A DNA stretch of 64,000 bases from NCBI GenBank assembly GCA_950295325.1, contig OX485804.1, positions 35,960,001-36,024,000 of the forward strand. The letters are read 5' to 3'. Numbering within the stretch: the first letter of the stretch is position 1; the number at the start of each line of letters is the position of its first letter. A program made the translations under genes and the position numbers. The stretch comes from Polytrichum commune (lineage: Eukaryota > Streptophyta > Polytrichopsida > Polytrichales > Polytrichaceae). A model generated the notes under the pieces. The model saw only the letters and a list, made by a program, of their open reading frames with translations. It was not told where the DNA came from and searched no databases. Positions 1-24,691 of this stretch are shown piece after piece.

Positions 1-215
1 CATCAAACTACTTGTTAGTCAATGTAGCAGCACTCTAAGGAGAATACCCAATACTCTAACCAAGATGCCACTTTTATTGACAAATGTGAAAGCACTCTAA
101 AGAGACTACACGGTACTCTAACCATCAAACCACTCATAAGCACAAATATAGTATCACCGTAAAGAAGCCACTTGATTTATAACCATCACACCACTACTAA
201 GCACAATTGTAGGAA
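1..215. repeat. Short tandem repeat in an intron
   Basis: About three and a half degenerate units of roughly 60 bp. Each has the shape CATCAAAC..ACT..., then AAGCACAAAT.TAG, then CACTCTAAAGAGACTAC and TACTCTAAC. The array lies downstream of a good splice donor at 270-275 (minus strand), so it belongs to an intron of the RING-type host gene whose remaining exons lie left of the window. No coding potential is seen. Confidence 0.55.
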
Positions 216-275
216 ATTCAGCCAAATATCAAAGCTCACTCAAAACCCACTGAAAAGTGGTGATGAAATACTTAC

Positions 276-630
276 TGCTGGGTACTTCATCTGTGTTCTC
301 TTGAATCAAAGCTTGTAGCAAGTCTTCACGTTGACATTTTAGACCTAGCTTCTCGGATTCCACCTTCAGTTCCTCGTCCAAGGCACGAAACCCCCACGAA
401 GTCCACCACTGTGGATGAAACAAAGTATCACAAGCATTGCACTTGTTTGAGTGTCTTGCAAGCTCCGCAATGCAAAATGGGTGAAACATGTGCATACAAG
501 GGGCCACCACTACGTCCATACAGGAATACCATCTACCACAAAATGCACATGCAGAGACATCAATCTGCCATGGAAGATCAACTAATCTATGAGAACTAGG
601 GTTAAGAACAGGTTTTGGCCACAAGGACAC
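276..630 (-). pseudogene. RING-H2 part of host gene, cut off by the retrotransposon
   Basis: This is the 3' part of the host exon interrupted at 626-630. It reads in frame from the insertion point to a consensus donor (GTAAGT, minus strand, 275-270), after which the gene leaves the window. It encodes a C3H2C3 RING-H2 signature: C-x2-C-x13-C-x-H-x2-H-x2-C-x10-C-x2-C, about residues 410-449 of the uninterrupted protein, including CMHMFHPFC. A Trp-rich stretch and a short charged helix follow. RING-H2 domains usually recruit E2 enzymes for ubiquitin transfer; that role is inferred here. The segment is now separated from its N-terminal half by 11.5 kb. I do not recognise the specific family. GACAC at 626-630 is one copy of the target-site duplication. 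Confidence 0.75.
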
Positions 631-2777
631 TGTGAGGCCAAACCCCCCACCCTTAAGCGTCCGTAGTCCGAGTAGTGGGTTTGGGCTCACATTCCTCCGC
701 GGTACTGGATTTGGACTTGGATGAGTCCATAGTGCAAGGTTCACCCTTCAAGTGGTCTTGGATTTAACTGGAATTTCACGTTTAACAACTCAATGTACGA
801 TTTCAATACGTATGTGGAGAATGCACAAGTTAACTATGTTATTTTAACCTCCTTATGCTCGGGTGCTATTTTGTCTTTGTTTGCTTCTAACGTCCATCCG
901 GCCGCTTTAGCTACACAAGCCCTTAAGGATATCCCTCTCCTAAATGGAGTCCGTGCCGTTGACTCTATACTACCACTTGAACTATCACTTGTGTATTCCG
1001 TATCGCTACTATAAGAGGTCTCACTTGGTGTCTCCATACCGTACATAAGCCTTTAAGTATTAAGAAATACTTATGTGACTTATGTCAATCTCTCCCTCGC
1101 ACCTTTGGTCTTTGCTTCCTTTGTCTTGCCATCGCGAGAGTGCTCCACATTCTCCATTAATTTGTGCACGTGGTTTATTTTTAAAGAGAGGATGCAAGTG
1201 TTAAAAAAACACTATTCTCTATAGTCAATCTCAAATACATTTACTTGTGAAAGCCACACATAACACTAACTAGCATAATGTAACTAACTACTTGTCTATG
1301 AGCTAATTAGGTAGGCTATCTACTAAGCTCCTTCATGAACCCATCTCTTTACTTTCTAATTACATAAACCTAGCTCCTTCATAAACCCAGCTTCTTAGCT
1401 TCTAACTAAACAAACCCAGCTCCTTCATAAACCCAGCTCCTTCATGAACCCAGCTCCTTAGCTTCTAACTAAACAAACCCAGGTCCTTCATAAACCCAGC
1501 TCTTTACTTTCTAACTAAACAAACCCAGCTCCTTCATAAACCCAGCTCCTTCATGAACCCACAACTTTGTAGTTGTAATCCCCAACTACCTCACTAATTA
1601 TTCAAGCCCTTAACTAATCTTCCTACCTAATTTCCCTAATTCTACTAACAACCCCTTTCTAATCACACAATTCTTCTCTAATCCTAAAATCCTAAAATCC
1701 TAGAGAGGAGAGGGGGAGAGAGAATTTCCTAACTTCACTAAGACCAACTAATCCACACAAGTATATTTTTGCACTCATTACAACATCAAGTGCTCAACTC
1801 TTAAACATGGAACTTGCAACCACGTGTATTCAAAACATGAACTTTAAGTACCACAAATTGGAATCATGAATTAACTTTAAAATCCTTCACGTCAACACTA
1901 ATTCTACCAAGAGGTCAAGCCTTCTTCAAGGCTAACAAGCCTTGGCTCTCAAACTAAAAACTAAGCACACACATGTGCTCCAATATGGCTTCCCACACCC
2001 ACACTTATAACTCGTGGGGTGCCTTGGAGCACAAAGGAAAGAGAGGATGAGTGAGGGAAGAATGAGGGATTATATAGTAAGCTTGAGGGGGTGAGCACCC
2101 TCAAGGCTCACGATAAGCCCTTGAGATTTCCTCCTACTTAGTAGGCGCCAATCCTATCTTCTAAGCCTTCCTCCCTCAAATGATCAACAAGGATCCTAAT
2201 TCGAACATTTAACTAGCCTTGGCTTTCTACCTACCACACTTTACCAAACTTGGGATGCTTCAACCCAAACTTAGCCTCCTTCGCTTTCCGCCGCCATAAC
2301 TTTCTCCCCTTACTTTCCCAAATCGTCGCTCACCACTTAATTCAAACCACGATGCTTAACTCGTGATTTGATTGGTGCTTTGAGAATTTGCTTATCCTCC
2401 ACCTTGCATTCTTCCTTGGGCCTTCCCCATTAAGTGGCCATGATGAGGTGGTCCACTTGTGCGCTCCATGTGATCCTCCATTCATCCCAATTCGAATGCA
2501 CTTGCCTCTTGAGTCACTTTGGTTGTCTCCATCCATTTGTACTAGCCTACTCACTAACTACTCAATCCAAGTTCTCCTTACCTATCCTCATTCACTCAAA
2601 TCCTTCCGAAGGTAAAAACACAATAACAACTCACATCCTAGCCTCTTACAACATGGTACTTCTAAGACTAACATTTCACTCTTTTTATATTTTTGTGAAG
2701 TAACATGCTACTTCAAAGTGCATCAACTAACGTTTCAAGGGTCTAAGACTAAATGTGGGCACCCTTTTGGGCTCACA
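631..2777 (-). repeat. 3' LTR of the Gypsy element
   Basis: Direct repeat of 9988-12134, with TG...CA ends and a 6-bp terminal inverted repeat (TGTGAG/CTCACA). On the minus strand U3 begins at 2777. A TATA-like box lies at 2077-2070. The LTR ends at 631, directly against the host RING exon. Short ORFs inside it are the same in both LTRs and show no recognisable domain. Confidence 0.95.
1325..1561. repeat. Tandem subrepeats in the LTR (3' copy)
   Basis: Degenerate array built from AGCTCCTTCATAAACCC and AGCTTCTAACTAAACAAACCC segments, about nine short units. It lies in the R/U5 half of the LTR. Confidence 0.75.
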
Positions 2778-2781
2778 TAAT

Positions 2782-2798
2782 TGGCGACCATCGGGGGA
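2782..2798 (+). other. Second PBS-like motif at the opposite internal edge
   Basis: Four bases (TAAT) inside the 3' LTR, the plus strand reads TGGCGACCATCGGGGGA, which looks like a primer binding site facing the wrong way. A polypurine tract would be expected here on the minus strand, and none is evident: the minus strand reads pyrimidine-rich CATCCCCCG. The spacer and first bases (TAATTGGYG) mirror the real PBS side. Confidence 0.4.
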
Positions 2799-2838
2799 TG
2801 AATCCAAACATCTCTTGCTCCAAGGGTAAGTTGCCTAG

Positions 2839-5800
2839 TCAAGCTCGGTACTCCTTACATCTACTTCCCGATGTACGGGTAGGAAAGAGCTCACCATTCA
2901 ACGTTTCCAATTGAATTGAATTATTAGGAAAGACCTCATAGACAAGGTAAGGTCCTAACCATACCGCATTGAATTTCGCCGGAAATTCAAGCTTTCGTGC
3001 GTCTTGAATCATGACCATCATTCCCGGTGTTAGGGCCCTTCTCTTATGTCGTTTGTCGAAAGTAATCTTTCTCCTTCTTTGGATTGCCTCAATATGTTGA
3101 GCCGCCATTCTCCTCCCTTCGTCAAGTGCTTCCAAATCGGTTAGTCGATTTCGTAAGGATTGACTTTCGGTAAGTCTCGTACTCACGGCCACCCTAAGTG
3201 ACTCGACTTCATATTCGATTGGTAGTGTCGCTTCAAGACCATAGACTAAGGAAAATGGTGTAGCACGCGTAGTTACCTTATAGGTTGTACGGTATGCCCA
3301 AAGTGCCGCCGTTAGTTTCGTATCCCAATCCCGCTTCGAGTCTATAACCGTCTTGCGTAGTATACTCACCAAAATTCCGTTAACCCTTTCCGTTTGTCCA
3401 TTGGTTTGTGGGTGGTAGGGAGTAGTCTTCCGGTGATCAATTTTAAATTTCTCTGTCATCTCTCGAATCAAGTCATTCAAAAAGTGAGTACCCCTATCGC
3501 TTACTAGGATCTTCGGCACCCCGAACCGCGAAATTATGTTTTCGTACATAAATGTTGCCGCGTGTTCCGCCGTGTCGGTCTTCACCGCTTTGGCTTCCGC
3601 CCACTTGGTGAGGTATTCGGTTGCCACCACAATATATTTCATTCCTTTTGAAGATTGGGGATGGACCTCACCCACATAGTCGATGCCCCATTTTTCGAAA
3701 GGAATTAAGGGTAATAATACATGTAAAGGCATCTCCATTCTAAGGTCGTTTCGGGCATACCGTTGGCAAGCGTCGCATTTCCTTACATAGTCATGGGCGT
3801 CCTTAAATAGTGTAGGCCAAAAGTAGCCCGCTCTAAGTATTTTTTGCCCGGTGAGTTGACCCGAGAAGTGACCGCCGCAAGCGCTATCGTGGCAAGCGAT
3901 TAAAATCGCTTCAACCTCCGTTTTTGACACGCATCGTCGTAAAATACCATCGGACCCCCTTCTAAACAACCTATGGCCCACTACAACAAATTGCCTACTA
4001 TTTACCCTCACCTTCCTTCTCTCTTCTTTTGTCCACTCTTTGGGCAACTTGTGGGTTGTTAGAAATTCCACTATGCCCGCATACCACGCCGGTGTAGAAG
4101 TGACCACAAAGAGGCTATCATCTACTAACATATCATTTACCGGATTTTTTCCTATCTCCTCCGACAACCTAGACAAGTGGTCCGCTTGTAAATGCATACG
4201 ACCCGGTTTATATTCCACCGTGTAGTCGAATTCTTCTAATAACAAAACCCACCTAGCTAACCTACCACTTAACTCCGCCTTGTTAATTAGATACTTGATA
4301 GCCATGTGGTCAACAAAAAATACAACCGGGTTGCACATGAGGTAATGCCTAAACTTTTTAACGGAAAACACCATGGCTAGGCACTCCCTCTCCGTTGTAG
4401 AGTAGTTTCTTTCGGCGGGGGTCAATTGCTTACTCGCATAAGCTATAGGTTGATCCTTCTCTTTTTCTCCCGTTGCTTGACAAAGCACACTCCCTATTGC
4501 CACATTACTAGCATCACAATAGACGTGAAAAGGTTTACCCCAATTGGGTGGTATCAACACCGGATAGGTGCTCAACCTATCCCGCAATTCCTCAAAGGCT
4601 TTTTGACAAGCATCCGTCCACTCGAATTTGACATCCTTTTTGAGCAAATGGGTAATAGGCACCGCTATCTTTGAAAAATTAGGAATAAGTTCCCGGTACC
4701 ATCCCACATGTCCTAACAACTTAGAGATCCCCTTGGAATTGGTTGGAGTTGCCAAGTCGCTTATGGCCGCAATCTTATCCGGATCGGGTTCTCTACCTTT
4801 CTCACTAACAACATAACCCAAAAACACTCCCTTATTCACTCCCAAAAATGTCTTATCCGGGTTCAATGCTAACCTCATCTTCCTACACCTAACCAATGCC
4901 TCCCTAACACAATGTAGGTGATCATCCACATTACTTTGTGTGCTAAAATCGTCCACAAAGACGGTCATGGATTTGAACAACAAGTCGGTGAAGATATACA
5001 TTACTAATCGTTGGAAAGTAGCCGGGGCATTACATAACCCAAATGGCATCACTACCCACACAAAAGTACCCCAAGGTGTAGTAAAAGCCGTTTTATGGAT
5101 ATCTTGGAGGGCTATGGAAATTTGATTATAACCCGCATACCCATCCATAAAGGTATATCGCGAATGACCTCCAACCTCCTCAAGCAACAAGGTGATAAAA
5201 GGTAAGGGGAAGTGATCCTTTTGTGTGCACGAATTCAATTTCCTATAGTCGACACAAACCCTTAATTTCCCATTTTTTTTCTTTACTAAGACCATAGGAG
5301 AAACCCAATCCGTGATTTCCACCGGCTTGATAAACCCGGCCTTCAATAACCTTTCCAATTCCGCTTTCACCAACAATTGCAATTGAGGATTCATCCTCCT
5401 CTCCTTTTGTCTAATTGGCCTCGCCCCCGGAATTAAAGGAATCCGGTGCTCTACCATTTCCCTAGGAATTCCCTTAAGCTCATCGTAGGACCATGCAAAA
5501 GTATCACTAAACTCATCCACCAAATTGCTATACTCCCTAACCTCTTTCTCCCCCAATTTGGAGCCCATCTTCATTTGTCGGGTTTTTCCATTCTTTAATT
5601 TCACATCCACGTACCGCCAATCCGCTTCCGACACATATGCTTGTTCCTCTTTGTTCCGATACCAATCGGAAGGCACATTGGGGTAATCTTTCACATCTTG
5701 ACCTACAACTATCCCCGTAGACGTGGTCTTGAAATGTAAAGGCTCCTCCAATTTTGATGACTCAATAATCACATCCTCCTCTTGAGTCCCATCTACATGA

Positions 5801-8800
5801 ATTAAACTAACCTCACCCTCTTCCACGGCATCTACCCAAGGTGTTAATCCACCGCTAACCCACTCTTCCTCGGTGAGCACCTCACATGGCTCCAACAATG
5901 AGCCCTCTCCTAAACTAACACTAGGAAATTCACTCCCTAAGCCTACTTGGTGAAATGTAACCATTACATCAACCTCGGACTCGGGGTACTCCCTTAGCCA
6001 TTGGGCATAATCCCCATTATCCCCATAATTGTAAAAATTAGGACCTAGACTTCCCGAGCCCGAATCTATAACAACCCTTTGACCTTCGGGATGGACGACT
6101 CCCACCAATGCCTTGCCAATCTCATTCTCGTTTAAGTCATCAATTTCCTTCTCCAATGGCAAATACATCTCCTTCTCCATCCATCCTTCTAATGAACCAA
6201 TGGACACTATGACCCTATTACCCTCCGGACCATAAGTGATGGATGGTTTAGGTCCACCCCAATTGACCATAGCATTCGCCATCCGCAACCAAGGCCTACC
6301 TAGCAAAATGGGGAAGGTGTCCTTGTTGGAGTGCATTTTAATGACATGGAAGGTGACCAAGTACTCCTCACCTCCCGTAGTCATTCTACAATCCTTGATC
6401 ATCCCCAAAGGCGTAGTCGAACTTTGATTTGCCATATTTATGACCAAAGGTGAAGGCCCCGTGAGTCCAAGTCCCAATTTTTTCATAGTATCCTCCGGTA
6501 GTATATTTAGACTACTCCCTCCGTCGACTAGCACATTAGGAACCACCTTATCTACTATAACAACTTCTATTTCTATAGCTTTCACGTGTCTTCCACCTTG
6601 TGATTGGATCCTAGCGGCTATTTTAGCTTTCACCTTCCTCATCCTCTTGTGTACCGGCATTCCCTCCTTTAATGTTTTCCTTGCCGTGGGTGAAATTTCC
6701 AATAGTTGGCCGAAAGTAATATCCGCCTTGAGTGTACTAAGGTCCGCCCACAAGTCGTACCCGGTAGATCTTTCCACCTTAGAATTACCCACTACGTCGA
6801 ATTCGTCTACGGGAACCCCCGGTCCTTCCCATTCACCCACATCGCTATTATCCAAGTCATGTACCGCATTAGTCCTCTCCCTATCTTGTAAAATTATATT
6901 TTCCCTCTCCACATCCTTAGTAGCTCTTCTAGCTACCCTATCCAACTCGGAGAGATTAATCTCTTCATCCGAAGAGTAATTTCCTTGCTCTCCTATTCCT
7001 ACCTCCAACGGGGCATCCCCTCTTCTAGCCCTAGTAGTTACCGCTAGTGCAGGTGCTTCTTCAACCACACCCTTACCCTTCACTAACTCATATGTAATAG
7101 CATTGGTGTGAGGAGGCCATTGACTTTGCTCCTCTCCAATTCTCGTTGGGAGAGGAAGCATGTCATCACATGTGGCCTCCAACACTCCATCCATGAACCT
7201 AACATCTTGGGAGTTAGATGGTCCCGGATCCGTTGGAGGCGCTTGTCTCCCGTTACTACCATTAGGTGGAACTCCTTGTCTATTTTGTATTGGAATGTAA
7301 CCGGTTGTAGTTTGCAAGCCCGCCGGTGGATGAAAAGTTTGCCTAGCATTACTATGGTCATAGTATAAGTTAGGTGGCCTAAGTTCATTGGCCGGTACTC
7401 CTTGTGGCCTAGCACCTCGCATATTATCCCTTGCTTGTTGTTGTGGATTAGCCACCGGGTAAGGGACATTAATTATTTTGTCCGGTTGGCGACACGTATC
7501 CGAGGGATGACTTCCTCCACAATTGCTACAATTAAACTCTTGACCTTCGGACCAACATTGTCCTTGAGCGTGCCACCTTCCACAAAAGGGATGAAATTCC
7601 TTCTTCTCTAAATTTTGGCCACCTTGCCCTCTAGGTTGTGGTCCTCTATTGCTTCCATTTCCATAGTGAGGTGGCGCTTGACCTCGTTGATTTTGTTGAG
7701 GTGGGTTACCGTTTCCTCTTTGGTCACGGTTTTGTCCACTTCTACAAAATTGACGCGTGTGGCCCGGTTGGCCACATTGGACACACCATAATCCGGAAGA
7801 ATGCCTACCCGACTCAACCGGGGGTGGAGGCCCCGGTTGTTGACTCCGGATCATTAATGACATTTGATCCGTGAGGCTTTGCATTTGTTTTATCATAGCC
7901 TCTTGGAATCCTAGTTGGCTAGCACCTAGTCTTCTCTCAACCTCCTCCAAGTGTGGATCCGTTCTAGGGGCCGGTAGTGCCAAAAGAGGTGCCGGTTCCC
8001 TAACCGCTAAAGGTCGGGGGCCGGTGTCCACAATGGCATATGGAATTTGGTTCTCATACTTAGCGGGTTCTACCGCTACCACCCTAGGGCGTATGGGGAT
8101 GAATTGTGGGATCAATTCATCCTCCCTTCTCCATAGCCTTTCGTGATCTTTATCCAAGTTTTCAATATCTCTAGCCGCACGCTTGGCATCCGCCAAGGTC
8201 AAGGGATTCCTTTCTAGAACACCCCTAATAGTTCCGGACTTAAAAAACCCTTGAATGAAAAATTGCTTTAGCGTGTCGTCGTTGAGCATGGTACCCACAA
8301 ATCTAGTGCACACTAAATCAAACCTCCTAATGTAAGCCGAAATTTCTTCCTCCCTTCCTTGCTTCAATGACGACAATGCCCTTAATGCGGTACTTTGACC
8401 CACTTCCGGCCTAAATTCGTTAAGAAACTCCCTTTGTAATTGTTCCCATCCCCTAAAATGTCCCTCGGCATGATCCCGATACCATTCATAGGCTTCCCCC
8501 TCTAGAGTGGTAGGAAACCACACTAACCAATAACCCGGGTCGGTTATGAGGAAGCTAGCCAACCGTTCGATATACCGTTCCATGTGCCGAGAGGGGTCCT
8601 CATCCTTGGTCCCATAAAATTTAGGGAGATGAGATGGCATATCCATCGCCGCTAAATTTTGTGGAACCACAATTGGTAGGCCTCTTGGCCTAACCAATGG
8701 GTCTATTGGAGGTATAGGAGGTATGGGCGGAATTGGGGGTATGGGTGGTGGATCCATCCCCCGTTCCTCGGCCATGGTGACCGGTGAACTATTCAACAAT

Positions 8801-9078
8801 CCCCTATCAACTTCTACCGGGAATTCTTCTCTAAGTGTGTAATTTTCCGAAGAAGTTTCACCACTCAATTTGGAGGGAGTGATCTCCTCTTCAAGTTGAG
8901 CTCCAAGTTCTAAGGTGTCTAGAATTGACCTAGTCCTAGGTTCGACGTTCAAACAACTCTCTATTCTAACATTATCTTGTTCTAATCTATCACTGATTTT
9001 AGAGGACCGCCTCTTTCGAGTAGATTTCTCTAGTCCTACTATCAAACTTGGTTTTTGTGAGCGAGTCCTACCTTGCAT
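2839..9078 (-). CDS. Gypsy gag-pol polyprotein (2079 aa, intact)
   Basis: One open frame encodes the whole polyprotein. Domains in order, with approximate residues: a proline/isoleucine PPI repeat (110-125); retrotransposon gag core around EAYEWYRDHAEG (about 195); a CCHC zinc knuckle (CVQCGQPGHTRQFC, about 431-445) and a second cysteine cluster (CSNCGGSHPSDTC, about 520); aspartic protease with DGGSS near 851; reverse transcriptase (YRKLN about 1275, FVDDF about 1373); RNase H (YCDAS about 1518); and integrase with an HHCC finger (about 1730-1778) and D-D-E core (GIDYVGE, VSDRGTHF, QTERVNG, about 1800-1895). There is no chromodomain. Gag and Pol share one frame with no frameshift or stop between them. 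All catalytic motifs are present, so the protein could be functional. The stop codon is only about 60 bp from the 3' LTR. The start is the first ATG of the frame. Confidence 0.95.
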   Translation of the reverse strand: MQGRTRSQKPSLIVGLEKSTRKRRSSKISDRLEQDNVRIESCLNVEPRTRSILDTLELGAQLEEEITPSKLSGETSSENYTLREEFPVEVDRGLLNSSPVTMAEERGMDPPPIPPIPPIPPIPPIDPLVRPRGLPIVVPQNLAAMDMPSHLPKFYGTKDEDPSRHMERYIERLASFLITDPGYWLVWFPTTLEGEAYEWYRDHAEGHFRGWEQLQREFLNEFRPEVGQSTALRALSSLKQGREEEISAYIRRFDLVCTRFVGTMLNDDTLKQFFIQGFFKSGTIRGVLERNPLTLADAKRAARDIENLDKDHERLWRREDELIPQFIPIRPRVVAVEPAKYENQIPYAIVDTGPRPLAVREPAPLLALPAPRTDPHLEEVERRLGASQLGFQEAMIKQMQSLTDQMSLMIRSQQPGPPPPVESGRHSSGLWCVQCGQPGHTRQFCRSGQNRDQRGNGNPPQQNQRGQAPPHYGNGSNRGPQPRGQGGQNLEKKEFHPFCGRWHAQGQCWSEGQEFNCSNCGGSHPSDTCRQPDKIINVPYPVANPQQQARDNMRGARPQGVPANELRPPNLYYDHSNARQTFHPPAGLQTTTGYIPIQNRQGVPPNGSNGRQAPPTDPGPSNSQDVRFMDGVLEATCDDMLPLPTRIGEEQSQWPPHTNAITYELVKGKGVVEEAPALAVTTRARRGDAPLEVGIGEQGNYSSDEEINLSELDRVARRATKDVERENIILQDRERTNAVHDLDNSDVGEWEGPGVPVDEFDVVGNSKVERSTGYDLWADLSTLKADITFGQLLEISPTARKTLKEGMPVHKRMRKVKAKIAARIQSQGGRHVKAIEIEVVIVDKVVPNVLVDGGSSLNILPEDTMKKLGLGLTGPSPLVINMANQSSTTPLGMIKDCRMTTGGEEYLVTFHVIKMHSNKDTFPILLGRPWLRMANAMVNWGGPKPSITYGPEGNRVIVSIGSLEGWMEKEMYLPLEKEIDDLNENEIGKALVGVVHPEGQRVVIDSGSGSLGPNFYNYGDNGDYAQWLREYPESEVDVMVTFHQVGLGSEFPSVSLGEGSLLEPCEVLTEEEWVSGGLTPWVDAVEEGEVSLIHVDGTQEEDVIIESSKLEEPLHFKTTSTGIVVGQDVKDYPNVPSDWYRNKEEQAYVSEADWRYVDVKLKNGKTRQMKMGSKLGEKEVREYSNLVDEFSDTFAWSYDELKGIPREMVEHRIPLIPGARPIRQKERRMNPQLQLLVKAELERLLKAGFIKPVEITDWVSPMVLVKKKNGKLRVCVDYRKLNSCTQKDHFPLPFITLLLEEVGGHSRYTFMDGYAGYNQISIALQDIHKTAFTTPWGTFVWVVMPFGLCNAPATFQRLVMYIFTDLLFKSMTVFVDDFSTQSNVDDHLHCVREALVRCRKMRLALNPDKTFLGVNKGVFLGYVVSEKGREPDPDKIAAISDLATPTNSKGISKLLGHVGWYRELIPNFSKIAVPITHLLKKDVKFEWTDACQKAFEELRDRLSTYPVLIPPNWGKPFHVYCDASNVAIGSVLCQATGEKEKDQPIAYASKQLTPAERNYSTTERECLAMVFSVKKFRHYLMCNPVVFFVDHMAIKYLINKAELSGRLARWVLLLEEFDYTVEYKPGRMHLQADHLSRLSEEIGKNPVNDMLVDDSLFVVTSTPAWYAGIVEFLTTHKLPKEWTKEERRKVRVNSRQFVVVGHRLFRRGSDGILRRCVSKTEVEAILIACHDSACGGHFSGQLTGQKILRAGYFWPTLFKDAHDYVRKCDACQRYARNDLRMEMPLHVLLPLIPFEKWGIDYVGEVHPQSSKGMKYIVVATEYLTKWAEAKAVKTDTAEHAATFMYENIISRFGVPKILVSDRGTHFLNDLIREMTEKFKIDHRKTTPYHPQTNGQTERVNGILVSILRKTVIDSKRDWDTKLTAALWAYRTTYKVTTRATPFSLVYGLEATLPIEYEVESLRVAVSTRLTESQSLRNRLTDLEALDEGRRMAAQHIEAIQRRRKITFDKRHKRRALTPGMMVMIQDARKLEFPAKFNAVWLGPYLVYEVFPNNSIQLETLNGELFPTRTSGSRCKEYRA

Positions 9079-9964
9079 TCCATAAGAATCGATCGACCCT
9101 CACTTGACCACACATAATCCTAGCAATTCCCCTCTTAATATTTTCACTTGTCTTGGTGTGGTTATAATTTTTTTAGGAGGTGAGGAAAAGAACCTGCAAG
9201 CCCACTTAGGTGAAAGAATCCCAATAGGGGATAGGCATGTTCATGTTAATTTTTTGGTTAAGTCGGAGCATCACCTCCGCACCTTCCCGCAAATTAACAC
9301 TCACCACAATACCGATTGTGAGGGGGTGACCTTCCGAGTAGATTATGTTAAAAGTCGAGGCTTCACCCTTCAACTTCTCACACCATCCACAATTCGGGAA
9401 TTACCCTCTACAACGGATAACAACAATCACGAGTACAAAAGACATTCCTTAATTAGTTAATGAGTTCACTTTGAAGAAATAAACATACCTTGAGCAATCG
9501 CATCCTCCTGTGAGTTAGCACTCCCCTCAATCGTGACTCAATGTAACAACACCATAAACTTTGTGAAATATTAATTTAATCTAGAGCATGAAATGACAAC
9601 TCCCAAAACTTTGAGACTCACCCCGAGGTGAGTGTCAAAGTTCAATGTCCTAAGGTGAATTTACCCTCTAATGTTTTAATGAGCTACTCGGTTATAGGTT
9701 CCTTTTAAGTTCTTAGCAAATCCCCAAAAAGGTTGAGGACGTACCTTCGCCGCGCTCCTTCCTCAAAAATGAATTTGCGTAATTGACAATGCAATTCATT
9801 CCAAGGAATAGTTGAAATACAATGAATTCAAATGTAACCCAAAGAGAGAATACTTACCGAGTTTCGGGTGCTCCTTCCCTTCTCTCAAGTTTGTGTCTCC
9901 AATTTTTCCTAGTTGCCTCCAAGTCTCCTAGTCGCCTCCAAGTCTTGTAACTACCTTCCGCTTC
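9079..9964 (-). other. Retrotransposon 5' leader
   Basis: About 0.9 kb between the PBS and the gag-pol start. It probably holds packaging and translation-control sequence. A 118-codon plus-strand frame (9104-9460) matches nothing I know and is antisense to the leader. No splice-dependent extra ORF was recognised. Confidence 0.5.
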
Positions 9965-9983
9965 GCTCCCGGCGGACGCACCA
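9965..9983 (-). other. Primer binding site, probable tRNA-Arg type
   Basis: Four bases after the 5' LTR, the minus strand reads TGGTGCGTCCGCCGGGAGC. It begins with TGG, complementary to a tRNA CCA end, and fits an acceptor stem starting GCGTCCG. A stem of that kind resembles arginine tRNA (UCU), but the tRNA identity is from memory and uncertain. Confidence 0.6.
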
Positions 9984-10681
9984 ATTATGTGAGGCCAAAC
10001 CCCCCACCCTTAAGCGTCCGTAGTCCGAGTAGTGGGTTTGGGCTCACATTCCTCCGCGGTACTGGATTTGGACTTGGATGAGTCCATAGTGCAAGGTTCA
10101 CCCTTCAAGTGGTCTTGGATTTAACTGGAATTTCACGTTTAACAACTCAATGTACGATTTCAATACGTATGTGGAGAATGCACAAGTTAACTATGTTATT
10201 TTAACCTCCTTATGCTCGGGTGCTATTTTGTCTTTGTTTGCTTCTAACGTCCATCCGGCCGCTTTAGCTACACAAGCCCTTAAGGATATCCCTCTCCTAA
10301 ATGGAGTCCGTGCCGTTGACTCTATACTACCACTTGAACTATCACTTGTGTATTCCGTATCGCTACTATAAGAGGTCTCACTTGGTGTCTCCATACCGTA
10401 CATAAGCCTTTAAGTATTAAGAAATACTTATGTGACTTATGTCAATCTCTCCCTCGCACCTTTGGTCTTTGCTTCCTTTGTCTTGCCATCGCGAGAGTGC
10501 TCCACATTCTCCATTAATTTGTGCACGTGGTTTATTTTTAAAGAGAGGATGCAAGTGTTAAAAAAACACTATTCTCTATAGTCAATCTCAAATACATTTA
10601 CTTGTGAAAGCCACACATAACACTAACTAGCATAATGTAACTAACTACTTGTCTATGAGCTAATTAGGTAGGCTATCTACT

Positions 10682-10918
10682 AAGCTCCTTCATGAACCCA
10701 TCTCTTTACTTTCTAATTACATAAACCTAGCTCCTTCATAAACCCAGCTTCTTAGCTTCTAACTAAACAAACCCAGCTCCTTCATAAACCCAGCTCCTTC
10801 ATGAACCCAGCTCCTTAGCTTCTAACTAAACAAACCCAGGTCCTTCATAAACCCAGCTCTTTACTTTCTAACTAAACAAACCCAGCTCCTTCATAAACCC
10901 AGCTCCTTCATGAACCCA
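10682..10918. repeat. Tandem subrepeats in the LTR (5' copy)
   Basis: Counterpart of 1325-1561 at the constant LTR offset. The array has the same number and order of units in both LTRs, consistent with a recent insertion and no repeat slippage since. Confidence 0.75.
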
Positions 10919-11426
10919 CAACTTTGTAGTTGTAATCCCCAACTACCTCACTAATTATTCAAGCCCTTAACTAATCTTCCTACCTAATTTCCCTAATTCT
11001 ACTAACAACCCCTTTCTAATCACACAATTCTTCTCTAATCCTAAAATCCTAAAATCCTAGAGAGGAGAGGGGGAGAGAGAATTTCCTAACTTCACTAAGA
11101 CCAACTAATCCACACAAGTATATTTTTGCACTCATTACAACATCAAGTGCTCAACTCTTAAACATGGAACTTGCAACCACGTGTATTCAAAACATGAACT
11201 TTAAGTACCACAAATTGGAATCATGAATTAACTTTAAAATCCTTCACGTCAACACTAATTCTACCAAGAGGTCAAGCCTTCTTCAAGGCTAACAAGCCTT
11301 GGCTCTCAAACTAAAAACTAAGCACACACATGTGCTCCAATATGGCTTCCCACACCCACACTTATAACTCGTGGGGTGCCTTGGAGCACAAAGGAAAGAG
11401 AGGATGAGTGAGGGAAGAATGAGGGA

Positions 11427-11434
11427 TTATATAG
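11427..11434 (-). promoter_or_regulatory. Probable LTR TATA box
   Basis: CTATATAA on the minus strand, about 700 bp into the LTR. It is the best TATA-like site upstream of gag-pol. Transcription would begin near 11400, giving a U3 of about 0.73 kb and an R-U5 of about 1.4 kb. The same motif in the 3' LTR is at 2070-2077. The assignment rests on sequence only. Confidence 0.45.
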
Positions 11435-12134
11435 TAAGCTTGAGGGGGTGAGCACCCTCAAGGCTCACGATAAGCCCTTGAGATTTCCTCCTACTTAGTA
11501 GGCGCCAATCCTATCTTCTAAGCCTTCCTCCCTCAAATGATCAACAAGGATCCTAATTCGAACATTTAACTAGCCTTGGCTTTCTACCTACCACACTTTA
11601 CCAAACTTGGGATGCTTCAACCCAAACTTAGCCTCCTTCGCTTTCCGCCGCCATAACTTTCTCCCCTTACTTTCCCAAATCGTCGCTCACCACTTAATTC
11701 AAACCACGATGCTTAACTCGTGATTTGATTGGTGCTTTGAGAATTTGCTTATCCTCCACCTTGCATTCTTCCTTGGGCCTTCCCCATTAAGTGGCCATGA
11801 TGAGGTGGTCCACTTGTGCGCTCCATGTGATCCTCCATTCATCCCAATTCGAATGCACTTGCCTCTTGAGTCACTTTGGTTGTCTCCATCCATTTGTACT
11901 AGCCTACTCACTAACTACTCAATCCAAGTTCTCCTTACCTATCCTCATTCACTCAAATCCTTCCGAAGGTAAAAACACAATAACAACTCACATCCTAGCC
12001 TCTTACAACATGGTACTTCTAAGACTAACATTTCACTCTTTTTATATTTTTGTGAAGTAACATGCTACTTCAAAGTGCATCAACTAACGTTTCAAGGGTC
12101 TAAGACTAAATGTGGGCACCCTTTTGGGCTCACA

Positions 12135-13493
12135 GACACCCCTTCACCCCTCTTCATTTCCTGAAGTTGAAACTGAACAGCTTCCTTCAATCTCTCAACA
12201 ACTTGTAGCTCTCCCTTTATCACTCGCAAGTTGGATTCCATCTCCCACAGAGTTATCTCCGTATCCTGAAAGAGGTTCTCTCCTTGAATTGCCCTCTTTC
12301 TCTTATCCTCAAGCATGGTTTGAGAAATTGAAATATTTCTCTCTAGCAATTCCTGCTCGCCTTTAAGCTGGCACAATGAAGCTCTAAGGCTGGTCAAGGT
12401 CGTATTTTCATCTGTTGGTTGCTCTGGCAGTGTCTCCAACAAAGAAGCAACCTGTGAGCACCATAAAAAATTAGTGTGATATCCTAAACCATATTGATAT
12501 GACAAGAGAGTTCTTGATGTGAACACCCGCTTCAAAGTATATGCATCTTACAACATTCTCCAATATCTGTGTGATTTTATCCATGTTCTTATATTTATAA
12601 CTGTCTCAAATAACTGAAGAAGTTTGAAATGAACGAATATATTGATCTCAACAGCGCACCTCTGTTTCTAAGGCTGCATATTTATCAACAATGATCTTCA
12701 AATCTTGTTGAAGCAAAATTGTGCTTTCATCAGCCTCTTTAGCAATGGCCTTACGATCCTCCATGTTGAACCGTAACCCAATAAGCTGCTCCGAGATCTG
12801 CTTGTGGCGCAACAAATAGCTCCCAATTTTCTTGTTTTTTGAAGAAGATAATTCAGATTCAAATGCCAAAACCTCTTCGACCCTAGTGATCTCAGCCAAG
12901 GACAAAGGGCGTGGACATTTTACAGGTTCATTGAGCAACAAGCGGGCGCCAAAACTTCCCGATCCAATTTCACGACATTCAATAGATAGAGAGGAGCAAT
13001 GGTAACCTCTTGTTGACACAGAATTGCTCTGGAGCTTTTCAAGCTTCCGTTCATTACGTTGCTGCAATAAGGCAGCTGTACTAGCAGCGGCAACACACCA
13101 GTTAACTGGAAAAAATTTCTTCTCCGCAATAAAACCTTTCACCATCCAATCCATAAACTCATTGTTCGTCACATCAGACTTGCCGTAGATCTTTCTGTAC
13201 AATGCAACTAGCTCCTTCTTTGTCTCGGTGGTGAGATTGGAATTCGTAGTTTTGAATTTGAGGTCCTTTCCAAACATCTTCTCTATATCTAAGGCAGAAA
13301 CGTGTTCAGATGTAAGATCTTGTTTTGGATTCAAGCCTGAAGATGCTAAACCTCTCTCGACCCTAAAAAACTCCACCGTTTGTTTGCTGTACGCTTCCAC
13401 CAATGCGGCTAAAACCCTAGGGATTGGAGGCGCGGCAACAATCTTTTCCCTTTTCCCTTCTACCTTCACCCTCAATCCTTCCGTCTTCATCAT
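12135..13493 (-). pseudogene. N-terminal exons of the interrupted coiled-coil/RING host gene
   Basis: Exon 1 (12660-13493, 278 codons) starts at a double Met at 13493/13490. It ends at a GTGCGC donor in phase 0. Exon 2 starts at 12451 after a CAG acceptor and runs to 12135, where the retrotransposon begins. The first 278 residues are mixed alpha/charged with no domain I recognise; the exon 2 part is Glu/Gln/Leu-rich and looks like a coiled coil. Exon 2 continues in frame at 625 once the element and one GACAC copy are removed (GTGTCC spans the join), and leads into the RING-H2 domain. Read as it stands, translation enters the LTR, adds about 14 foreign residues and stops at 12092. The product would lack the RING. 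The specific family is not recognised. Confidence 0.75.
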
Positions 13494-13780
13494 GCTACCA
13501 CCCTAAACTCTGGAGTGACAATAATGAGGAAGTTCGAAGTTCTAAGCAAAGAGATCTTTGTCGATGTAAGCTTCTGAAACCAAAACCCTAAAACCTTTCG
13601 AATGTCCAATGCAACAAGGAAAACAAAACCAGATCACAACAAAGCAAGAGGACTGTAAGATTCGAGAAATGGATAGACAGGTTGCATTCGCCCGTGCCCA
13701 TCGCACTGAACGCCGATTCCGAGAAACAAGGCGACAATTCGAACATCCAGCCGTTCCAGCATAAGGACGGCGTCAAAGCA
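13494..13780 (-). other. Upstream region of the RING-type gene
   Basis: About 290 bp between the host gene start and the GC-rich block. It should contain the 5' UTR and part of the promoter. No clear TATA box was found. Confidence 0.35.
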
Positions 13781-16700
13781 CTCCCTAAGTGTGCACATGT
13801 GGGTCGTTTTATCTCGTTTGTACCCTCTACTAAATCTGAGATAACTGGGCGATCTGTACCACTTTCCGGATTGCCCCACCGAGGATCCGTGAGACCTTTT
13901 CAGAAGATCGGATGGCGTAAGTCCGGCACCTCCCGGATCTTACCCAGTCCTAACGACGGCTATCTCACATAGGCATTACCCAGACATCCGGAATAATGAG
14001 GATTCCTTCCCACTACACTCAGAAAGGAGCCATAGTACTGTAGTCGGATCCGATCCGGGTTTCCTCTCCTTGGTCCTATCCGTACTTCCTACTCATCCAT
14101 TCCCTCTAGATCTGCGACATTCTCCTAACCGTCCGTGCACAAAACAAGTCAGAATAGATGGAGAACTAGAGTTTTATTGAGTAGGGAGCAACAACATACA
14201 ACATCGGAGAAGAGAACCCTTTTCAAGCTCCTTATTCAGCCTTAAGTAGAGGCCACAATCCCTAACTACTGGTGGCGGCCCAGGCGGCCGCCCAGAAAAC
14301 CCCAGGCAACGGGAAATCCGGAAACGTGTCCTTTGCGGAATTTCCGGATCTCGATCCGCTTTTCGCGCTGACAAAATTTGAATTTACAGTTTTGCCAAAA
14401 ACTCAAAAGGGGATTCCTAACCTATGCCTACTTAATTCTGAACTATCTACAACTAATCTACCTAAGCCTAATTTAAGTGGTGCGGTGCTTCTTCGAAGCC
14501 GTCCCTTCCTTGGTTTGACTCGCGGGCCCGCCGATGGCGGAAGAGCCTCCCCCGGGGGTCAAAAGTCGTCGCTCCTGCAACCTTGTAAATACCCTCCTCA
14601 TGTTTGGGGAGGGGGCGACCTCTTCTTCGGAATCGTCTGCTGCGGCCGGATCCTCTCCCGATCCGTCACCCGATCCGGATTGCGCTGCACCGGAAGCATT
14701 CTTCTCCTTCCGGAACCTCTGGCCAGGTGAGGGGTCACTTCCGGTGGCCCGCTCCCTGTTCCGGCCACATGAGACGGAAGTCGTCCGGGGATCCCTCACG
14801 GACATCGCGTGTGAGGGTGGAGGAGCCCACGGCTCCACTATCATGCAGTCAAGAGCAGGAACGGGCGAAACCTGTGATACCAGTGCCTTACACCTATCCG
14901 GAGTCTTTGTCCGATCCGGCGTCCTCATCCTTTCCGGAGTCCTGGCCCTCTCCGGCGTTCAGGACCGCCCTGACGCCCTTCCCTGACATGGATTCGGTGA
15001 TTGTCCCCGTCCGGACCTGGTTGACCATTTTGTACTCTTCCGTCAAACTAGGGATGAGCTGGGCCATTCCGGAACAGGGGTCTTCTCTTGATCCGGATTC
15101 CGGTGGCTGGGAAGTTCCGGCTGGCTGACTGGGCCCTGCACCCGTTTGTGAGGCCGGAACCAGTTCCACTTCCCCAATAACCTCGTACAGAGTGCCCATC
15201 GGGGATCCGGGTGGACCCGGATAGAGCATCCGCCTGGGGGTATCACATGGCAGCAACTTTTGGATCTCCTTGAGCAGATCCTTCATTGAGCGGGAGTACT
15301 TTACCAGGATTGGGAGCGTTTGCCGGGCGGAAGACGGATCCGCGGACTCCATCAGCTGGTCGTAGAGGTGTGCCTTGTTGACGATCTCTCCCGGATGGCC
15401 CACCAACTCCCGGACCCGACTCAGAACCACAGCTTGTTCCGCCTGGTATTTCCGGATTTCTTCGCTCTTCTGGGCGAGCTCCCGGGTCATAGCGGCCACC
15501 TGTGCCGCCAGTTGTGCCTTCTACGTCTCCAGGGTCTCCACCTGTTTCCGGTCTGTCCGCTTGGCCAACTCCCGGAGGATATTTCCGGGTCCACAATTGC
15601 CTAAGGCCCTGTTCACTCCACAAGTGATGTGCTCCATCCGGAAGTACTGGTTTTGGAGCTCCGTCAACTCATCCCGGACGCGCTTAAAGGGGGCTTCCGG
15701 AAACTCAAAGGTGGAGAGGTCGATGTCCTTCCAGGGGATTTCCCGGCTGGGTCCGGCTTTCTGTCGAGGCGGTGGTGAGGCGGGTTTCCGGACCTTCGGA
15801 GGAGACGAAACCGGAGGTGGTTCCGGAACCACTGTGTCGCTCGAGTCCTCTGTTCCGGTCTCCGCAACTTCGACTTCCGGACCGATCTTGTACACCACCT
15901 CATCTTCCACTATTGTCAGCATGTCCTCCTCCTCTTCGTTGATGCAGCCGTGGTGCTGGTAGAGGTGGAGGATGTAAGGGGAAAGAAAGGAGGGTTTCCG
16001 GCCAATGTGGGGGATGGATTTCTCCACATACTCCTGAATTAATCTACCCAAATTGACAGGCCGGGCTCCGGACACGGCCTCGAACAGGGTGTTGGCCATG
16101 GTAATGCTGAGTCGCTTGGGTTTTTCCGGACTAAGGATGGGGAGAATGAATTCTATGACTCTCCTCTCTCTAAGGTTCCGGCAGTTCCCGGGATGGAATC
16201 CGTCCTTCGAATCCGGATCTGTTCGGAATTTTCCCACATAGAAACTATCCCTGCGGCTAGCCCAGCCCTCGCCCTTTCCTTTCGGAAACCCGTAAACTCC
16301 AGCCCATACCTCCTGCGTCCATTTCTCCGGCTCCTACCTCATTGTCCGAAGCCATTGATTTCCCTTCTCAAACAGAAATTCCCGCAATGTGGCCTCCGCC
16401 CGAAGATTCCAGGGCTTGGCAAGTAATCCCTCACAACCCATCCGGCTAAGGTCCTCTATGAGCTCCTTTAGCTCGGAATCTCTTTTCGGGGTGGCCGGCG
16501 ATACCGGTTTCACGGGAATTGGGACATGTTCCCTCTCATCTTCCTCTCTCGCTTCCGGCATTTTGCTTTGCACCCTCAATCCTCTAACAATCGCCGGCTT
16601 CTTCCCTCCGGAGTTCTATCCGCTAACCACTAAGGAATCCCAACAAACCAACTGTTGGTGACTCGAAAAACAGCTCACCACTCGTTCTCTCGACAATGCC

Positions 16701-20591: not shown

Positions 20592-22094
20592 ATGGCAGGA
20601 CGTGGCCGTGGGCACTCGGTGCTTCGAGGCCGTGGACGCGGTGGCTTGCAGCGAGGAGCGCCTGCGGCAACTGATTTCGGGGTTGGTGAGCGGGGATTCG
20701 ACGACGTCGAATTTGAGGGTTTGATGCGGGGGAGGCCGTCGCCGCGAGTGGGTGAAGCGAATGGTTTGCAATCTCGGCGAACTGGGCTCGATCGCAGCCA
20801 GCATGCGGGGATTCACTTGCAGCATTCAACTGGTTTCGGCGAACACGAAGCACCGACGGCCTCGGTGCCAGATGTGACTACTGGAGCAGGCCATCAAGCC
20901 CAGGTGAGTGACCCAGCATTCTCCCTGCATACTCAACCCTCTGTTGATTTTGGTCGAAGCCGAGGCAGGGGTCGTGGGGGAGGGTCTGTGCGGCCTGCGA
21001 AAGGTAAGAATTTTGTTCCTGAGGAAGAGCGCCAGTTGACTAGGAGTGTTCTCGCAATCTCTCAGGACCCAATTTGCGGGAATCAACAAAAGGGTAATGC
21101 TTTCTGAGAACGAATTTATTTGCATTATGATCAATGTAGACCAGGTGGACATAGGGGCGCGCGATCATTGGAATCAAAATGGGGCATGATTAAACACGAT
21201 GTGGGAAAATTCATCGGAGCCTATAATCAAATCAAAAGATTAAACAAAAGTGGTAGTAAAGAATCTGACATTATTCGCATGGCTAAAGATTTGTATCGTA
21301 CTAAAACTGCTAAGAACACTGAGTTCATGTTTGAACACTGTTGGGAATTGGTGAAAGATTTTCCGCGTTGGGCTGACGGTGTTAGTCCATCGCGTCAAAC
21401 AACTCCCTCTAGGAGGGTGTCTGGTTCTTCTGACCACGAGTCGCAATCGGGTTCCCAAATGGACACCCAAAATGGTGTGAGTGCTGTGGATACTACAGGT
21501 GAGGCAACTACAAGCATGACATTCAGAGAGAGGCCCGGAAGCACAAAAGTAGCAAAAGATGCCCAACGTGCTGACAAGGTGCACGAGAGAGCGGCTTTGA
21601 CTCAAGCCAAGGCCGCCGAGAAGATGGCGGAAGCAACACTTCGCAAGGCGGCAAGTTTGGAGTACCACAACATGCTACTCCTTTTCACCGCACCGATGAA
21701 CCAAGTTACCACGCCGGAGGCTCAAGAATTTATTCGTTTGCTTCGTGAGGAGGAGCTGCTCAAATTACGATGTCAAAGGGCGGAATCCGCGGCATTTGAG
21801 TTGCGTGAACAACAAGAGCGAGAGGTTTTTGAAATGTCCGAGGCGGCACGCGAACGAGAAGAAGCGGATAAGAGATCTCAAGAAGATGAGGAAACACTCA
21901 GGCAATTGCGGGATGCACGAGTGGAATTCGACTCTATGAGATCAAATTACGAGCATCCGGGTCATAGAGAAATTGGGGATTTGCAAGAATCCGACGAGGA
22001 AGACGATCTCGATTCTGAGGTGGATTCAATTTCTCGTACTAAACCAGCCACTTTGCTTGACTGTGAGCCTGTGATCCTGCTTGATAAAATTTGA
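20592..22094 (+). pseudogene. Harbinger ORF1 (Myb/SANT-like DNA-binding protein), one nonsense mutation
   Basis: The frame starts at 20592 (MAGRGRGHSVLRGRGRGG, RGG-rich N-terminus) and stays in one frame to 22094 except for TGA at 21105-21107. The family normally has FW-x-RI here; the sequence reads GNAF, stop, ERIYLHYDQCRPGGHRGARS, so a Trp codon (TGG) has probably become TGA. The Myb/trihelix-like domain spans the stop (SLESKWGMIKHDVGKFIGAYNQIKR). A Ser-rich linker and a Glu/Arg-rich coiled coil follow. In this family ORF1 acts with the transposase in binding the element ends. A 46-bp GT...AG stretch around the stop is too short to be a convincing intron and would delete conserved residues. 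Confidence 0.85.
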
Positions 22095-22279
22095 AATGTG
22101 AATGCTGGATTCACTTTCTGTGAGCCGACTGTGACCCTGTCCGAATTCTAATTCTCTTCTAGGGCAGACTGTGGCCGACTTTGAATGTGACTGTTTTTTT
22201 TTTAAATTTCCTGCAGGCAGTCTGTGTGAGTTATTTAGTTCTCGGTTATCTGCAGGCAGTCTGTGAGGGATAATGTAGG

Positions 22280-22534
22280 TTTTTTTTTTTTTTTCCTGCA
22301 GGCCCTGTATGTGGATTTTTAGGCTCTGATTTGATTGCAGGCACAAAAGAGATTAGTCTGAATGCTTCTTTTTGACAGGGAGAGGGTCTGTAAGGGTTTA
22401 GGGAAGGTTTTTTTTGTTTTTTTTTTCTGCAGGCCCTGTATGTGGATTTTTAGGCTCTGATTTGATTGCAGGCACAAAAGAGAGCAGTCTGAATGCTTTT
22501 TTTTGACAGGGGGAGGGTCTGTAAGTGTTAGTGT

Positions 22535-22565
<31 letters not shown>

Positions 22566-22655
22566 CCTGCAGGCCCTGTATGTGGCATTACATGCTCTGG
22601 TTTAATTGCAGGCACAAAAGAGAGCAGTCTGTGAAGGCTGAGTGTGAATGTAGGT
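22280..22655. repeat. Tandem repeat in the Harbinger spacer
   Basis: Two full units of about 128 bp plus a shorter third. Each unit is a poly-T run, then CTGCAGGCCCTGTATGTGG, a pyrimidine tract, TTGATTGCAGGCACAAAAGAG and GTCTGTAAG. A run of more than 20 T lies near 22538-22565. The motif GCAGGCAGTCTGTG recurs at 22250, 22700 and, beyond the transposase, near 24795. Confidence 0.8.
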
Positions 22656-23026
22656 TTTGGGTTTAGGGGTTTAGGGGGTTATTTAGTTCTCGGTTATCTG
22701 CAGGCAGTCTGTGAGGGCTGAGTGTGAATGTAGGTTTTTTTGTAATTTTTTGTTCTACAGACAGTCTGTGTGGTCTACAGTCAACGAGTTTGGTTGATGG
22801 AATGCAGCATTGCTGCCGACTGTGATTTGCAGGGCAGGCTGAGTCCGAGCATTGGCATGTTTGTGTGTGTGGATGATTCTGTTCTGCATGCATTCTGTGT
22901 GGATGTTTCAATTATGGACAATTTGTGGTCGAATGTGGCATTACGCCCGTGCTTGAATGTGTATGAGCTTGAGTGTGTCTAAGCCTTGAATGTGCCTAAG
23001 CCCTGTTTTGTTGTTTTTGATTGCAG

Positions 23027-23272
23027 GCACAACATGCGAATGAAGAGCATGATCCTTGTAATCGGCGATTCCGAGAAGATGGCGGGATTGCACCCGGTAG
23101 ATATGTAGATAGCCATGGTGATAGTGGTCAGTGGGATGACATTGAGCATGTTGGACCGGGGATGCCCACCACATGGGATGTCATGGTAGATCATGACAAT
23201 TCACAAAACATGTGCGCCGAGGATGACATTGGACTTGGTTTAGCATTGACTGGACATAGTTTTTTCCAATAA
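23027..23272 (+). CDS. Possible last exon of Harbinger ORF1
   Basis: Open for 81 codons after a good acceptor (TTTTTGATTGCAG). It encodes an acidic, Asp/Gly/His-rich peptide (RRFREDGGIAPGRY, then GQWDDIEHVG) and ends in HSFFQ. A phase-0 donor at 22020 (GAG then GTGGAT) would join it to the ORF1 coiled coil, replacing the terminal 25 codons. It has no known domain. It could instead be a chance ORF in the spacer. Confidence 0.35.
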   Translation, partial: AQHANEEHDPCNRRFREDGGIAPGRYVDSHGDSGQWDDIEHVGPGMPTTWDVMVDHDNSQNMCAEDDIGLGLALTGHSFFQ

Positions 23273-23395
23273 ATGTGATATTAGTCACACATTTGTATAT
23301 TATTTAAAAATTTCAGCATACATTCTTTCTCCGAAACTCACATGTATTGCAATTGATATGGCCAAACTTATGGATACTAGTCACCCCTTTATATA

Positions 23396-24691
23396 TTAGG
23401 CCAAATTGGTGTCTTTCAACATCCACAAGTGCTCAATTAGATCACCACGGAGACCAAAATGAGTGTCCGCATTGGTAATGTCCACGGTACTTGCCATATA
23501 CTCATAAAAGGACAAACCTCTTTGCATTGGGACATTTCCCTCATGCAACTCACCAATAATATCATCTAGTCCTTCAACACCTTCTTCGTCATCAATTATC
23601 ATATTGTGCAAGATACAACACGTGAACATGATGTTCGATATCACTTCCATGCTCCAATGCCGGCAAGGGTTGCGAATTATCGCAAAACGGGCCTGCAACA
23701 CCCCGAAACATCTCTCAACATCCTTGCGCACGGCCTCTTGTCTTTCCGCAAAATAGCTGCGTTTCTCATCTTGTGGTTGATGGATGCTTTGCACGAAGCA
23801 AGACCACTCGGGATATATACCATCCGTGAGAAGATAATATCGATCATACTGACACCCGTTAACCTCGAATTGCATGTCACGAGCTTCGCTAGTCAACATG
23901 TTGTGGATGAGCGGTGAACGATCCAACACGTTCAAGTCGTTGTTGGAACCGGGTAACCCAAAGAACGCATGCCATATGTGCAAACCACCATCCGCCACGG
24001 CCTCCAATATGATCGACTTCTTCCCATCTTTGTCACCGAAGTCCCCTTGCCAAGCAACCGGGCAATTCTTCCACTCGTAATGCATACAATCAAGTGAGGC
24101 AAACATGCCTGGAAATCCACGATCAGCATTAATTGCCAACTGTTTTTCAAAATCGGCACGAGTAGGTTGTCTCATATGGTATGCCTCAAACTCACACCTA
24201 ATTGCAATGCAAAATCGCTTCATAGATGTCATCGCGGTGGTTTCACTAGTCCTGCAATATTCGTCTGTAGCATCGGCATACAAACCGTAACACAACATCC
24301 TCAAAGCGGAGGTGATCTTCTGATGCGGGGACAACCCCAAAAAACCACATGCATCTTGTTTCTGAACAAAGTAATCGTCTCTAGCACAAACCCTATCCAA
24401 TATGGTCAAAAATAATGACCTCCGCATACGGTATCGACGGCGGAAAAAATTTGGGCCATACGTAGGTTCATCTGCAAAATAATCAGACATCATGCGGGCA
24501 TGCATCTCGTGTCTATGCCTGTCAATGTTGGGCGATTTCCCTGGACGTGATCCATGGACAATGCTCGGCATGTGACCACGTGGTGCACTCAACCCTAATC
24601 CAATAATCCAATTAACATTGAAATCATCTTCCTCATCGTCCTCCAAAATAAGCTCCCGAGTCGCAAGAAGGCGTTCCCGCCATTGATCCAT
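23396..24691 (-). CDS. PIF/Harbinger transposase (DDE superfamily)
   Basis: About 431 residues from Met at 24691 (MDQWRERLL). The frame extends seven codons further upstream to 24712, but an acceptor-like TTTTGTAG just before 24691 suggests the coding exon starts there. The helix-turn-helix-like N-terminal region contains FRRRYRMRRSLFLTILDRV. The catalytic triad is Asp in SLDCMHYEW (208, counting from 24712), Asp in LTDGIYPEW (297) and Glu in KDVERCFGVLQ (333), followed by the conserved RNPCRHWS and CCILHNMI blocks. It catalyses cut-and-paste transposition with 3-bp target duplications. No stop or frameshift interrupts the frame, and the length is normal for the family. It converges on ORF1. 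Confidence 0.95.
   Translation of the reverse strand: MDQWRERLLATRELILEDDEEDDFNVNWIIGLGLSAPRGHMPSIVHGSRPGKSPNIDRHRHEMHARMMSDYFADEPTYGPNFFRRRYRMRRSLFLTILDRVCARDDYFVQKQDACGFLGLSPHQKITSALRMLCYGLYADATDEYCRTSETTAMTSMKRFCIAIRCEFEAYHMRQPTRADFEKQLAINADRGFPGMFASLDCMHYEWKNCPVAWQGDFGDKDGKKSIILEAVADGGLHIWHAFFGLPGSNNDLNVLDRSPLIHNMLTSEARDMQFEVNGCQYDRYYLLTDGIYPEWSCFVQSIHQPQDEKRSYFAERQEAVRKDVERCFGVLQARFAIIRNPCRHWSMEVISNIMFTCCILHNMIIDDEEGVEGLDDIIGELHEGNVPMQRGLSFYEYMASTVDITNADTHFGLRGDLIEHLWMLKDTNLA

Follow-up and report, generated by a model that had tools for sequence, protein, structure and literature searches.

The locus described here raises the question of whose gene has been broken. In the window, i.e., the whole 64,000-nucleotide stretch of Polytrichum commune DNA that was analysed (C2:35960001-36024000), a retrotransposon lies within an exon of a gene encoding a coiled coil and a RING-H2 domain. 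An earlier note had described this arrangement as an in-frame split of a single gene, now a fresh knockout. The features of the locus are collected in Table 1, and relatives were searched for throughout the 408 Mb genome, seven large chromosomes of which make up approximately 406 Mb. The plastid contig of this assembly contains chlL, a gene whose presence rules out an angiosperm, as well as rbcL, which fits a bryophyte and is followed by accD.

Table 1. Features of the split gene, of the inserted element and of the DNA transposon around them (window positions unless preceded by C2).
Feature	Position	Strand	Basis or remark
Exon 1, coiled-coil/RING-H2 gene, 278 codons	12660-13493	-	ORF, phase-0 donor GAG/GTGCGC, homologues
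Intron 1, 208 bp, phase 0	12452-12659	-	C2:62.98 Mb relative has intron at same position and phase
Truncated copy of high-copy MITE-like repeat, inside intron 1	12483-12647		39 or more further copies scored in the genome
Exon 2, upstream piece (coiled coil)	12135-12451	-	interrupted at 12135
Exon 2, downstream piece with RING-H2 domain	276-625	-	donor AGCA/GTAAGT; weak zf-RING_2 match
Exon 3, outside window	C2:35959484-35959734		
Full-length Ty3/Gypsy LTR retrotransposon, 11,504 bp	631-12134	-	LTR pair, TG..CA ends, TSD, Pfam domains
Gypsy 3' LTR, 2,147 bp	631-2777	-	identical to 9988-12134
Gypsy 5' LTR, 2,147 bp	9988-12134	-	LTR family with tens of genomic copies
Gypsy single gag-pol frame, 2,086 aa	2839-9099	-	Retrotrans_gag, RVT_1, RT_RNaseH, Integrase_H2C2, rve
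Gypsy TSD GACAC, left copy	626-630		
Gypsy TSD GACAC, right copy	12135-12139		
DDE/D transposase-like gene	C2:35953502-35956795	+	convergent to RING gene, just left of window
Enclosing DNA transposon, in-window part	1-13825		whole C2:35952392-35973825; TIR/TSD
Right 27-bp TIR of DNA transposon	13799-13825	-	perfect inverted repeat; left TIR C2:35952392-35952418
DNA transposon TSD TCTA, right copy	13826-13829		TCTA also directly left of C2:35952392

The inserted element has the reverse transcriptase-RNase H-integrase order of Gypsy in its gag-pol frame, as judged from Pfam matches (RVT_1 at 1272-1430, RT_RNaseH at 1494-1624, Integrase_H2C2 at 1725-1782 and rve at 1800-1897), and it lies in the same orientation (minus strand) as the split gene. 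It shares with Ty3/Gypsy elements the succession of gag, protease, reverse transcriptase, RNase H and integrase, the LTRs ending in TG...CA and the 5-bp target site duplication (TSD), while differing from them in its long 2.1-kb LTRs and its one 2,086-aa gag-pol frame. Comparison of the two LTRs within the 64-kb window detected 0 mismatches in 2,147 positions, which sets a 95% upper bound of approximately 54-100 thousand years on the age of the insertion if substitution rates of 1.3e-8 to 7e-9 per site per year are assumed, these being values for angiosperms and not for this plant. Moreover, at least 40 matches to the LTR were scored genome-wide, several of them paired and 9.36 kb apart, indicating that the family is numerous and young. 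A derivative LTR subfamily lacking about 330 bp (LTR positions 140-472) was also observed, e.g., at C4:2908335, C7:27927142 and C2:67003614.

As previously noted, the codons on the two sides of the element rejoin. Read on the minus strand, the last bases of the left half are GAA GGG GTG TC, and the right half continues with C TTG TGG CCA; removal of the element and of one GACAC, between the GTGTC that ends at 12135 and the C at 625, yields a single open frame, MKRGEGVS/LWPKP (that is, ...QEMKRGEGVSLWPKPVLNP...). As a frame match alone is a one-in-three event, and could thus also be met with if the halves were separate genes whose joined frame is accidental, homologues are needed as the real test. 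In tblastn searches, the relatives at C2:62.98 Mb and C2:62.28 Mb, as well as others, align in one frame across the junction, which lies at query residue ~383/384, with alignments such as 'QVAAMRKGSGMSFWPIPQV' and 'QLEAMRSGGSLPLWPKLAL'. The junction is in fact a family motif, represented by MRKGSGMSFWPIP and MRSGGSLPLWPKL at the two C2 loci (62.28 and 62.98 Mb), and the homologues carry M+xGxGxS-[LF]WPxP uninterrupted within one frame. Furthermore, coiled coil and RING occur without interruption in a 401-aa frame at C4:34.116 Mb and in several further family frames of 500-577 aa; in the other family members overall, the N-terminal part, the coiled coil and the RING are contained in a single frame of 400-577 aa. 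Since homologues from this genome continue without a break across the corresponding position, the two halves (12135-13493 and 276-630) were one gene. Two separate genes were rejected as an explanation, and we consider the chance of an accidental joint frame to be practically nil.

Rejoined without the Gypsy element, the RING gene comprises 583 codons over three exons, with exons 1 and 2 open. As a small correction of the exon limits, the stretch given earlier as the N-terminal half, 12135-13493, consists of exon 1 (12660-13493), intron 1 and the upstream piece of exon 2. The third exon contains a TAG with approximately 84 further in-frame codons behind it, and this TAG may be either the true end of the gene or another stop. 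The zf-RING_2 match of the split gene (E=1.4e-4) reaches 22.5 bits, below the curated Pfam cut-off of 27.3, and the zinc-ligand spacing CxxC..CxH.[FY]HxxC..C is kept in 23 distinct sequences of the family. This RING-H2-like spacing is what the gene has in common with plant RING-H2 proteins (ATL and others); the sub-cut-off Pfam RING, the coiled coil, an HPxW tail and the transposon context set it apart from them. The split locus occurs in one copy in the one assembly examined. Regarding intron 1, the MITE-like repeat that it harbours has at least 39 other copies scored at approximately 86%, among 1,773 candidates genome-wide, and intact copies have the terminal inverted repeat (TIR) CACTATATTCGTTAATTTG. 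The possibility of this intron being an introner was rejected, as the repeat is a truncated MITE-like copy and as the C2:62.98 Mb relative has the same-position, same-phase intron without it.

We then considered to whom the reunited gene belonged. According to one reading, the Gypsy element recently knocked out an E3 ligase gene of the RING-H2 type belonging to the host, and several observations are in line with it: apart from the insertion, the frames of the split gene are open; the identical LTRs point to a recent event; and long open reading frames are retained in a few members of the family that have no transposase nearby. Against it, the relatives of the gene are dispersed in the genome and several of the close ones are full of stops. 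In addition, a transposase-like gene lies on the opposite strand, approximately 3.5 kb to the left of the exon that encodes the RING. Its protein found no useful match in Pfam, NCBIfam or PDB, and its assignment as a transposase comes from the architecture and from D..D..D/E-like motifs recognized by eye (the D of CIDFSESY, the D of WSDGC and the D/E of GHGKGEVDG). With this protein as query, the genome search returned 96 matches, in places that mirror those of the RING family. Of the 44 RING matches genome-wide, 30 have a transposase match no more than 30 kb away, and in 29 of these cases the two are convergent, as at the split locus; random placement gave a mean of 0.46 and a maximum of 4 in 2,000 trials. 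The closest relatives of the transposase (52% identity) and of the RING gene (38-40%) adjoin each other at C2:62.98 Mb, and the association recurs over deep divergence, with transposase identities of 36-52%. For the remaining 14 of the 44 RING matches, no transposase match lies within that distance, and some members of the family could therefore be genes of the host or copies in decay. Among such members, those at C6:128989, C7:459933, C2:65553044 and C4:55507292 have open frames, and are candidates either for domestication or for loss or divergence of the transposase.

The boundaries of the locus weigh further against a gene of the plant. In an inverted-repeat search of the wider region to the left, GGGTACAAACGAGATAAAACGACCCAC emerged as a perfect inverted repeat of 27 bp, and TCTA was then read off directly outside each copy. 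Because perfect 27-bp TIRs and TCTA stand on both sides, the split gene lies inside a DNA transposon, together with the transposase-like gene. This transposon measures 21,434 bp, or approximately 9.9 kb without the Gypsy element. Genome-wide, the core of the 27-bp TIR is found at only three sites, namely the two ends of the enclosing transposon and C7:15521702, where 1.07 kb from the left end of the transposon is present at ~99% identity, beginning exactly at the TIR and in other flanking DNA; the match at this site concerns the left end only. Moreover, the same gene pair is found in two further bounded copies, C3:44919897-44933695 and C4:24430666-24444513, which are near-identical to each other, contain both the RING and the transposase genes, and were delimited by where their mutual homology stops. 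They start with GGGTGTAAGCATCCTTGGGTGG and finish with its inverted counterpart, giving TIRs of ~35 bp, and their TSDs are TTGG and CAGC. Thus, the length of the TSD is constant at 4 bp over TCTA, TTGG and CAGC, and homology ends exactly at the TIR in the dispersed copies, i.e., in the C3/C4 pair and at the left end of C7:15521702. The terminal sequence of the C3 and C4 copies had no match at the split-gene locus, as termini differ between subfamilies, and a search for TIRs at the nearest relative, C2:62.98 Mb, returned nothing convincing. Regarding the group as a whole (4-bp TSDs, about 30 other loci), its members range from approximately 10 kb to, judging by gene spacing, possibly 25-30 kb. 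The larger copies encode a further 563-aa protein that shares the N-terminal domain (C3:44923483-44926785), along with a 290-aa frame that shows a RING-like match of the C3HC4 type.

Altogether, these results indicate that the Gypsy element is nested in the RING accessory gene of a DNA transposon, a transposable element within a transposable element, to which we assign a probability of about 0.93. The boundaries, the TSDs, the frames, the gene content, the order of nesting and the transposase stop described below can all be read directly from the sequence. The description of the locus as a fresh knockout is correct in that a recent LTR retrotransposon sits inside the exon and cuts off the RING half, but not in treating the gene as an ordinary one; knockout of one of the plant's own genes does not agree with a dispersed family that keeps the same convergent arrangement with a transposase-like gene next to it, and is very improbable. 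In the most plausible course of events, a DNA transposon of ~9.9 kb with 27-bp TIRs entered C2 and duplicated TCTA, its cargo being a plus-strand DDE/D transposase-like gene and a convergent, minus-strand coiled-coil/RING-H2 accessory gene. The Gypsy element then landed in exon 2 of this accessory gene, at a point between coiled coil and RING and in the sense direction; being nested in the transposon, it must be later than the transposon's own insertion. Transcripts from the accessory gene's own promoter would presumably run into the Gypsy 5' LTR, and reading into this LTR gives a predicted product of 397 aa without the RING. As the RING half has no ATG ahead of the first zinc ligands, it would be natural to regard RING function as lost for the split copy. 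The part played by the RING protein, as well as the catalytic role of the transposase-like protein, is likewise putative.

The enclosing DNA transposon is itself defective. Its transposase frame has a premature in-frame TAG where the 654-aa frame of a relative has a sense codon, and the transposase is thus broken independently of the Gypsy insertion. This observation bears on another explanation, in which a domesticated transposon gene, or a host gene captured by the transposon, was still serving the plant until the Gypsy element landed. Exons 1 and 2 remaining open despite a broken transposase in the same copy could be taken as a sign of such service, but the split copy may be too young for decay to show, and the recurrence of the RING gene with transposases of 36-52% identity fits a long-standing gene of the element. 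Overall, we consider domestication or capture at this locus very improbable, and nesting in an element gene remains the preferred reading.

Regarding classification, the enclosing transposon is possibly Sola-like, a lead that comes from published descriptions and not from comparison with a reference sequence. Sola elements are described as having 4-bp TSDs and a transposase of the DDD type and as reaching more than 15 kb in size, and have been reported from the moss Physcomitrella (PMC10741241). Compared by description, the RING-bearing transposons resemble them in their 4-bp TSDs, in their D...DGC...HGKGEVDG motifs (possibly DDD) and in their sizes of 9.9-13.8 kb. No RING/coiled-coil accessory gene for Sola or such elements was found in the literature searched, which covers few subscription papers or Repbase reports. 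Kolobok lineages likewise carry another protein-coding gene besides that of the transposase, and in one case it lies on the opposite strand; in contrast to the RING-bearing transposons, they are described as TTAA-specific, and their accessory proteins are nucleases, helicases or KolX and not RING proteins (PMC9587614).

Elsewhere in the window, an ORF with a NAM-associated domain (21108-22094, plus strand) is convergent with a Plant_tran/DDE_Tnp_4 transposase (23396-24715, minus strand), and the pair, 21108-24715, is probably a PIF/Harbinger-type element. Three tandem copies of a 131-bp unit lie between these two Harbinger-like ORFs, at 22280-22681. Moreover, a partial gene for a bHLH transcription factor, probably a real host gene, occupies positions 62884-63789 on the minus strand (E=6.3e-6 for the HLH domain).

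Nesting of one transposable element in another is a common event in plants, and the more interesting part of these results is the recurrent RING/coiled-coil accessory gene. We tentatively suggest, as an idea that may well prove wrong, that in a widespread and deeply diverged group of plant (probably moss) DNA transposons, the gene convergent to that of the transposase encodes a RING/coiled-coil accessory protein. This protein might be a ubiquitin ligase supplied by the transposon itself, acting against silencing by the host or in the tuning of transposition, and some of the copies with no transposase nearby may be domesticated. A clean-looking broken plant gene that is a transposon gene is a trap for the annotation of knockouts and pseudogenes. 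Furthermore, a transposon lineage that keeps a RING/coiled-coil gene beside its transposase over deep divergence raises the question of whether transposons carry ubiquitin-pathway proteins of their own.
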